Part shown: piece after piece, positions 43,107 to 45,945 of the stretch
Layout: every line of letters begins with the position of its first letter
Numbering within the stretch: position 1 is the first letter of the stretch
NCBI RefSeq assembly: GCF_024362525.1
Contig: NZ_CP101458.1
Coordinates: 1,488,001 to 1,552,000, forward strand
From: Natrononativus amylolyticus
GTDB lineage: Archaea > Halobacteriota > Halobacteria > Halobacteriales > Natrialbaceae
Direction: 5' to 3'
Length of the DNA: 64,000 nucleotides
The notes under the pieces: model-generated
What the model was told of the DNA's origin: nothing
Seen by the model: the letters and a program-made list of their open reading frames with translations, nothing else
Database searches by the model: none
Position numbers and translations under genes: made by a program

Positions 43107-43180
43107 GGGCCGGTAGCTCAGTTAGGCAGAGCGTCTGACTCTTAATCAGACGGTCGCGTGTTCAAATCGCGCCCGGCCCG
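43107..43180 (+). tRNA. tRNA-Lys (anticodon CUU)
   Basis: 74 nt. Acceptor GGGCCGG (43107-43113) pairs with CCGGCCC (43173-43179), with discriminator G 43180. D-arm GCTC/GAGC; anticodon stem TCTGA/TCAGA around loop CTCTTAA (anticodon CTT); T-arm GCGTG/CGCGC around TTCAAAT. CCA is not encoded. No intron is visible. Confidence 0.93.
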
Positions 43181-43231
43181 TTCTGCACCGCGAACAAATC
43201 GTGAGCGGTGCATCACGGAACCGGCGGGATT

Positions 43232-43281
43232 TGAACTAGACTGAAGTTCTGCGCGAAGCGCAGGTTCTCAGGCGTAGTTCA
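43232..43281. repeat. Nested inverted repeat (cruciform-like)
   Basis: Outer arms TGAACTA (43232-43238) and TAGTTCA (43275-43281), a middle CTGA/TCAG pair, and an inner perfect hairpin CTGCGC-GAA-GCGCAG (43249-43263). It lies directly before the tRNA-end copy. It could be an RNA structure or a recombination site. Confidence 0.6.
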
Positions 43282-43282
43282 C

Positions 43283-43297
43283 AATCGCGCCCGGCCC
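43283..43297 (+). repeat. Copy of the tRNA-Lys 3' end
   Basis: AATCGCGCCCGGCCC is identical to tRNA positions 43165-43179, 118 nt downstream. Just upstream, GTTCA matches the T-loop with one extra C. Such partial duplicates of tRNA ends usually mark an attachment site of an integrated or lost element. Confidence 0.7.
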
Positions 43298-45283: not shown

Positions 45284-45375
45284 GTCGGCGTCCGTCGGGT
45301 GTTCTCCCCCGTTTCGAGGCCGTGCATCTGCAAGCACCATTGGCTTACTCGGGTTCGTGGTGGGTTTCGGTTGCA

Positions 45376-45945
45376 ATGTCTGCACAATTCAGCGACGACG
45401 ACATCGGGAAGACAGTCGTCAACGCGAACGGTGACGAGGTCGGGATCGTCTCGGCGGTCGAACACGGAACCGCCCACGTCGAACCCGACCCTGGTATCAC
45501 GGATACGATCAAAGCGAAACTCGGCTGGGAGGGTACGGGCGAGGAGGCCTACCCGCTCCAGGAACAGGCCGTCGCCAGCGTCACGGACGACGAGATCCGG
45601 CTCGAGGGCGACCTCTCGGGCGCCGGTTCGACGCACACGGGTCAGTCGACCGGCGCTGCCGCCGGCGGAACGACGGGAACCCGCGACACCGACGTCCGGG
45701 ATGACGACGACGACCTGATCGGTGACGACGATGACGACGGGCTCATCGGCGACGACGACGATCGCCGAGGCCGGGACCGTCGTACCGACGACGACGACCT
45801 GATCGGTGACGACGACGACAGTCTCATCGGTGACGACGATGACGACGAGCTCATCGGCGATGACGACGACGACCTGATCGGCGACGACGACGACGAACAC
45901 CGAAGCCGCCGTGACCGAGACACCGACGACGACGACATCATCTAA
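45376..45945 (+). CDS. PRC-like N-terminal domain with Asp-rich repeat tail
   Basis: 189 aa from ATG 45376; an upstream ATG at 45322 is less likely. Residues 1-80: FSDDDIGKTVVNANGDEVGIVSAVEHG looks like a PRC-barrel half. Residues about 105-189 are DDDDLIGDDDD-type repeats (at least six LIG units) broken by Arg-rich pieces. Probably disordered and metal- or salt-binding; function unknown. Confidence 0.75.
   Translation: MSAQFSDDDIGKTVVNANGDEVGIVSAVEHGTAHVEPDPGITDTIKAKLGWEGTGEEAYPLQEQAVASVTDDEIRLEGDLSGAGSTHTGQSTGAAAGGTTGTRDTDVRDDDDDLIGDDDDDGLIGDDDDRRGRDRRTDDDDLIGDDDDSLIGDDDDDELIGDDDDDLIGDDDDEHRSRRDRDTDDDDII

Follow-up and report, generated by a model that had tools for sequence, protein, structure and literature searches.

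Behind the tRNA-Lys(CTT) gene of the haloarchaeon Natrononativus amylolyticus lies a gene-less unit of two hairpins that closes with a copy of the tRNA's own 3' end, and copies of this kind stand behind half of the tRNA genes of the genome. I propose that the unit belongs to a family of small cassettes specific for tRNA 3' ends, which would have reached their present places by insertion. The odds that this is right are about even. As far as the searches reached, the double-hairpin units behind many archaeal tRNA genes are an undescribed family: no published account of them was found in the open-licence full-text literature of PMC.

The stretch of DNA analysed, called here the window, is 64,000 nt long (chromosome C1, positions 1488001-1552000 of genome G000). 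The 15-mer AATCGCGCCCGGCCC occurs in it exactly twice on the + strand, at 43165 and 43283, a spacing of 118 nt (Table 1). A preliminary description of the locus had reported this perfect repeat of the tRNA-Lys end, a similarity to the T-loop just upstream of the second copy (GTTCACAATC at 43277-43286, compared with GTTCAAATC in the tRNA) and the lack of an integrase nearby. All three are borne out, the last by a Pfam search of the ten proteins that neighbour the locus. The description overlooked the inverted T-arm copy, both hairpins and the wider family. Within the window, the tRNA alone reaches an Rfam gathering score, and the unit is a member of no described Rfam family.

Table 1. Features of the tRNA-Lys(CTT) locus, in window coordinates
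Feature	Position	Strand	Basis
tRNA-Lys(CTT), host gene; nt 54-73 are the repeated 3' end	43107..43180	+	ARAGORN; Rfam RF00005, 67.9 bits
Direct repeat, copy 1, 15 nt, within the tRNA (3' strands of T-stem and acceptor)	43165..43179	+	
SL1, stem-loop TGCACCGC..GCGGTGCA with GA..GA apical motif	43184..43212	+	folds; stem covariation over 129 SL1-like hairpins
T-, inverted copy of the tRNA T-arm (GGCGGGATTTGAAC)	43223..43236	-	sequence; specificity for own tRNA
SL2, hairpin of class I: invariant TAGAC and GGCGT, covarying stem (CTGA..TCAG), top GCGCGAAGCGC	43237..43275	+	
T+, downstream copy of the tRNA 3' end (GTTCA-C-AATCGCGCCCGGCCC), one extra base	43277..43297	+	
Direct repeat, copy 2, inside T+	43283..43297	+	

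The case for a family begins with the genome itself. Rfam RF00005 finds 44 tRNAs in it, and the last 16 nt of each was sought within 400 nt downstream, an own-tail copy being a match of at least 13 of the 16. Such copies lie behind 22 of the 44 tRNAs (19 at a threshold of at least 15/16), and at the same threshold none lies upstream of any of the 44. Tails of the wrong tRNA match in 1.3% of 1892 comparisons, and in 10,000 reassignments of tails among loci the mean number of copies was 0.56 and the maximum 5. The downstream copies are therefore far above chance. At 20 of the 22 loci, and thus 20 of the 44 tRNAs, there is a hairpin unit, with a perfect SL1 stem of at least 5 bp ahead of T-; tRNA-Ile(GAT) and tRNA-Ala(GGC) lack such a stem. 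The units are roughly 100-150 nt long, carry no gene and are too short for a transposase, and in being short and multi-copy they resemble MITE-like repeats.

It is the ends of the unit that change with the host. When the genome was searched for similarity to the window locus, tRNA-Lys(TTT) was found with two tandem units, and tRNA-Phe was matched as well, by a unit that terminates in tRNA-Phe's own end. An identical 25-nt SL2 hairpin, AGGGAGCAGCTTCGCTGCGACCGTG, stands behind Leu(TAG), Met(CAT) and His(GTG), with T- and T+ specific to the host at each. The host specificity of T- is shown more weakly than that of T+. In this genome, T- fits its own tRNA in at least 9 of 12 positions at 16 of 22 loci, as do 34% of comparisons with the wrong tRNA, and in at least 11 of 12 at 10 of 22 loci, as does none of the wrong comparisons; the match at Leu(CAG) is poor (7/12).

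The same order of parts, SL1, T-, SL2 and then T+ as a copy of nt 54-73 of the host tRNA, recurs in other genomes. From 195 tRNA loci, 192 were kept for repeat profiling (those with no anchor or of odd length were dropped), and the profile and the count of T- matches use only the 125 loci whose first copy scores at least 14/16. The set of 192 over-represents Lys, Phe and Arg loci picked by similarity, some of them (L005-L033) by likeness to the window locus, so that the 136 that carry a copy should not be read as a rate; unbiased counts come from the genome above (22/44) and from the whole-tRNA surveys of other genomes given below. Over the 125 loci, the identity of the copy to its tRNA is 0.90-1.00 for nt 58-73 and 0.93 for nt 54. 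It falls to about 0.7 at nt 53 and nt 55-57, where an extra base shifts the alignment, to 0.61 one nucleotide past the tRNA end, and to background by the sixth. From this profile it follows that the repeat begins in the T-loop and stops at the 3' end of the tRNA (about nt 54-73). The distance from the end of the tRNA to the end of T+ ranges from 66 to 206 nt among the loci measured, with a median of 122. In 52 of the 125 loci T- agrees with the reverse complement of nt 54-65 of its own tRNA at 11 or 12 of 12 positions, compared with 0.6% for wrong tRNAs differing by at least 3.

The hairpins are conserved in structure. SL1 stems covary at every position in 129 hairpins, and their top, judged by eye, is a tandem-GA, K-loop-like motif. 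SL2 occurs in several classes: TAGAC..GGCGT (class I), CAGGGAG..GACCGTG, and at Haloferax tRNA-Phe CCAGCGAG..GTGAGG together with plain hairpins. The class II pattern TTGAACGCAGGGAG..GTGTGTTCA has no match in the N. amylolyticus genome, where its counterparts read CAGGGAG..GACCGTGG or similar. The class I stem covaries as well, its first pair in 92 distinct cores being CG in 40, GC in 40, TA in 4 and AT in 3. The bulge-helix-bulge splicing motif and the K-turn were considered by eye: the former does not fit the internal loop of SL2, and SL1 is more like a K-loop.

Units are widespread in haloarchaea, though patchy, and a variant exists in marine group II. Of 392 genomes of the order, 93 hold the strict class I core and none holds the reversed pattern, which served as a control. 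In a set spanning the phylum, the core is found in 16 of 81 genomes within the order and in none of 311 outside it. Among GTDB contigs it appears in 31 stretches (32 matches), from haloarchaea and from two records taken as marine group II (Candidatus Poseidoniales and Euryarchaeota archaeon UBA242). Of the 32 matches, 29 have a same-strand tRNA upstream and the other 3 have tRNA-end copies there; likewise, of 71 distinct class I units in fetched loci, 67 stand behind a same-strand tRNA, with 17 anticodons represented, and the remaining 4 behind tRNA-end copies. No match of the core was found in IMG/VR contigs.

Whole-tRNA surveys give the same uneven picture. One other haloarchaeal genome has an own-tail copy behind none of its 40 tRNAs. 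A Poseidoniales genome has copies behind 4 of 29, or 3 if two loci that look like one duplicated locus (L297 and L298) are counted once; its units follow the same plan with other sequence (L293, L296, L297, L299 and L301) and are in tandem at L293 and L301. In a genome of the same phylum outside the order (G539), 1 of 20 tRNAs examined, out of 54, gave a match, apparently to a neighbouring tRNA gene that shares the end rather than to a unit. The wrong-tail background in these other genomes was 0.07-1.8%.

I propose that the units arise as follows. A recombinase or transposase acting in trans would recognise the T-loop and acceptor region of a tRNA gene, and hairpin DNA would enter at the 3' end of the tRNA through a staggered break of about 16-20 bp. 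The host's tRNA end would thereby be duplicated, leaving the tRNA intact and the site reusable. Repeated entry would then build tandem arrays whose newest unit is next to the tRNA, while recombination between copies of T+ or T- would remove units and shuffle combinations of SL1 and SL2. The fit of T- to its host might come from fold-back copying during insertion or from later correction of the quasi-palindrome.

The arrays look as this model would have them. Of 69 arrays with at least two copies, 44 have the better copy next to the tRNA and 6 have it at the distal end; in the other 19 the two are equal. The count spans related genomes, so that the arrays are not independent. Such polarity would be expected because the tRNA stays whole and its site can be used again. 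There are also differences of exactly one unit between congeners. In a genus of the Haloferax group, with the same units as Haloferax larsenii and elongans, one genome (G392) has at tRNA-Phe one more unit, 112 bp long and adjacent to the tRNA, than two others (G173 and G302), with flanks 94-97% identical; gain and loss are inseparable here, since recombination between direct repeats would also excise a unit cleanly. At tRNA-Arg(TCG), among 12 genomes of the genus, 5 have clear units, 2 have degenerate ones and 5 have none.

Several points stand against the cassette proposal, among them the missing match in IMG/VR contigs, the absence of Cas1 from the genome and the inseparability of gain and loss. 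A simple target duplication leaves the host-fitted T- unexplained, and the hairpins partly follow tRNA isotype, a pattern as compatible with long residence at one tRNA as with mobility. When 66 class I units were compared (71 less four without a called tRNA and one duplicate), the mean identity of SL2 was 0.73 within an isotype and 0.64 between isotypes, a difference reached in none of 1000 shuffles, and the nearest neighbour was of the same isotype for 33 of the 66. SL1 types also partly track isotype across genomes. At the same time, identical class I hairpins are common to Lys and Phe, and others to Met and Ser. A further observation on the same side concerns T+ itself. In two Haloferax genomes with a changed T-stem in tRNA-Phe (CGGGG; CCCCGTTCAAATCGGGG), the T+ copies bear the change while T- lacks it, and gene conversion may thus keep T+ matched to its tRNA.

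On another reading the unit would be a functional RNA, transcribed as a 3' trailer of the tRNA, inherited with it, and using its hairpins for termination, RNase Z processing or protein binding. This is improbable, at perhaps one chance in several. In its favour are the strong covariation of the stems, the partial tracking of isotype by SL2, the possession of TAGAC and GGCGT by both haloarchaea and marine group II, and the stability of the 120-nt unit of tRNA-Lys(CTT), which as RNA folds far better than shuffled sequences (z -5.4). But as DNA it folds far better than shuffles too (z -4.9), and mispairs give no clear sign of RNA on the + strand: inside SL1, GT outnumbers AC by 19 to 10 (p 0.14), and in the class I stem by 4 to 3. 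For lack of a clear one-strand bias I lean, without proof, towards hairpins of DNA rather than RNA. A trailer with a function is also hard to square with a genome in which half of the tRNAs do without it, with another haloarchaeon that has none, and with congeners that differ in its presence.

Perhaps there is no dedicated enzyme at all. Palindromic T-arms could provoke fold-back template switching, and homologous recombination among tRNA tails could spread units or remove them. T- and T+ do flank the hairpins as near-perfect palindromes, and the Haloferax tRNA-Phe arrays hold, in G392, a tandem duplication of 34 bp that carries T+ and, in G325, the SL1 of one unit fused at T- to the SL2 of the next. 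However, template switching would not supply conserved hairpins (TAGAC..GGCGT; AGGGAGCAGC..GCGACCGTG) that recur behind unrelated tRNAs and across families, nor is it at ease with a repeat that ends exactly at nt 73 of the tRNA. I regard it as unlikely, to about the same degree as a trailer.

Several known systems invite comparison. Casposons target the 3' end of tRNA genes, repeat the target directly and insert in tandem (PMC10359463), and the units are like them in all three respects, their repeat ending at nt 73 and the duplication being present at 22 of the 44 tRNAs. The casposase of A. boonei recognises TCAAATC, the T-loop sequence, upstream of the segment duplicated at the 3' end of tRNA-Pro (PMC6614799), and for that reason a casposase-like enzyme is conceivable. 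There the duplication starts 8 bp past TCAAATC, whereas the units repeat a segment internal to the tRNA (about nt 54-73) that runs up to the tRNA's 3' end. The units, unlike casposons, carry no gene, and Cas1-solo was not found in their own genome. Cas1 (PF01867) has no match in that genome and is found in 33 of 101 genomes of the family, which does not support it as the required enzyme.

The small repeats of Haloquadratum (SMR-A/B, PATEs and MITEs) are palindromic or have inverted repeats, lack a transposase and are mobilised in a manner called enigmatic, the SMRs being about 80-110 bp (PMC3119063). The units share with them their haloarchaeal hosts, short length, palindromes and lack of a transposase. 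The SMRs are reported to lack a target duplication and to target other mobile elements rather than tRNA genes (PMC3119063), whereas the units end in a tRNA copy specific to the host. Those units that were read have two internal palindromes and the inverted T-arm, with no fixed terminal inverted repeat in common.

Elements moved by tyrosine recombinases use the 3' part of a tRNA as attachment site (PMC8371274), and in relatives they occupy the same tRNAs as the units. They carry an integrase and cargo, their att site is one fixed tRNA sequence, and they have no T- or SL2; the units differ in each. Two such elements are instructive. In Natronorubrum bangense, 31.4 kb separate tRNA-Lys(CTT) from the tRNA-end copy that heads a hairpin array (L209-L212, G406:C1:2603001-2664000). 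A second record (L049; L213-L215, G407:C56) has an 8.7-kb element between tRNA-Phe and the copy that follows, and its att repeat is about 33 nt long. In both elements the final long reading frame ahead of the array is Phage_integrase (PF00589, E 2e-19 and 3e-11), and N. bangense has two tyrosine-recombinase-like genes at the array end, one of them below the PF00589 cut-off. Ahead of T+ at the att repeats of both there is no T- and no SL2, and hence the hairpin units are not scars of these elements.

Quite another comparison is with integrons. Their attC arrays are polarised, and their sites are palindromes that fold so as to leave a spacer unpaired and a base extra-helical, with a top hairpin that varies. 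The T-/TAGAC..GGCGT/T+ hairpin has inverted arms, a spacer that stays unpaired, a single extra-helical base and a top that varies. The likeness, in polarity as in fold, is one of architecture only, and the units, unlike integron cassettes, carry no gene. By analogy one could imagine, as a decidedly speculative and less probable idea than either a trailer or template switching, an archaeal integron-like system anchored at tRNA genes and spread over two archaeal phyla. The 3' part of the tRNA would be the entry site and the T-/TAGAC..GGCGT/T+ hairpin the folded single-stranded recombination site; cassettes would enter next to the tRNA, each entry copying or swapping the tRNA 3' end, and acceptor ends and arrays would coevolve.

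The preliminary description had seen in the repeat the pattern of a tRNA-targeting integrative element, and perhaps a scar or att site. The first part stands in so far as the repeat resembles a duplication at a tRNA target and the elements of two relatives use the same tRNA ends as att, but that the repeat is the scar or att site of a tyrosine-recombinase element is very improbable, and as a lone scar it is refuted by the recurrence of the unit (behind 20 of 44 tRNAs here, with no integrase among ten neighbouring proteins) and by att repeats that no hairpins precede. The copy instead closes a conserved double-hairpin unit found behind about half of the tRNAs of the genome, and by its established mechanism an integrase attP has no means of providing each tRNA with an end of its own. 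The description had itself named presence of the copy in relatives regardless of insertions as what would tell against an att scar. That is largely the case: among loci chosen by similarity, the double-hairpin unit lies behind the tRNA-Lys genes of most relatives read, with no integrase nearby.

If the units are indeed cassettes specific for tRNA 3' ends, then in an archaeal genome roughly one tRNA gene in two bears a repeat family, undescribed as far as the searches reached, that copies tRNA 3' ends, sharing its sites with integrative elements and its insertion logic with CRISPR and casposon arrays. The arrays would serve as a natural archive of what has happened at tRNA genes, and would point to an enzyme not yet known. 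Annotation of tRNAs would be affected too, since T+ copies resemble tRNA fragments. Were the units RNA instead, they would constitute a new class of tRNA trailer.

Elsewhere in the window, at 45322-45945, is encoded a protein of 207 amino acids without a Pfam match, the C-terminal half of which consists of acidic repeats of the type DDDDLIGDDDD.
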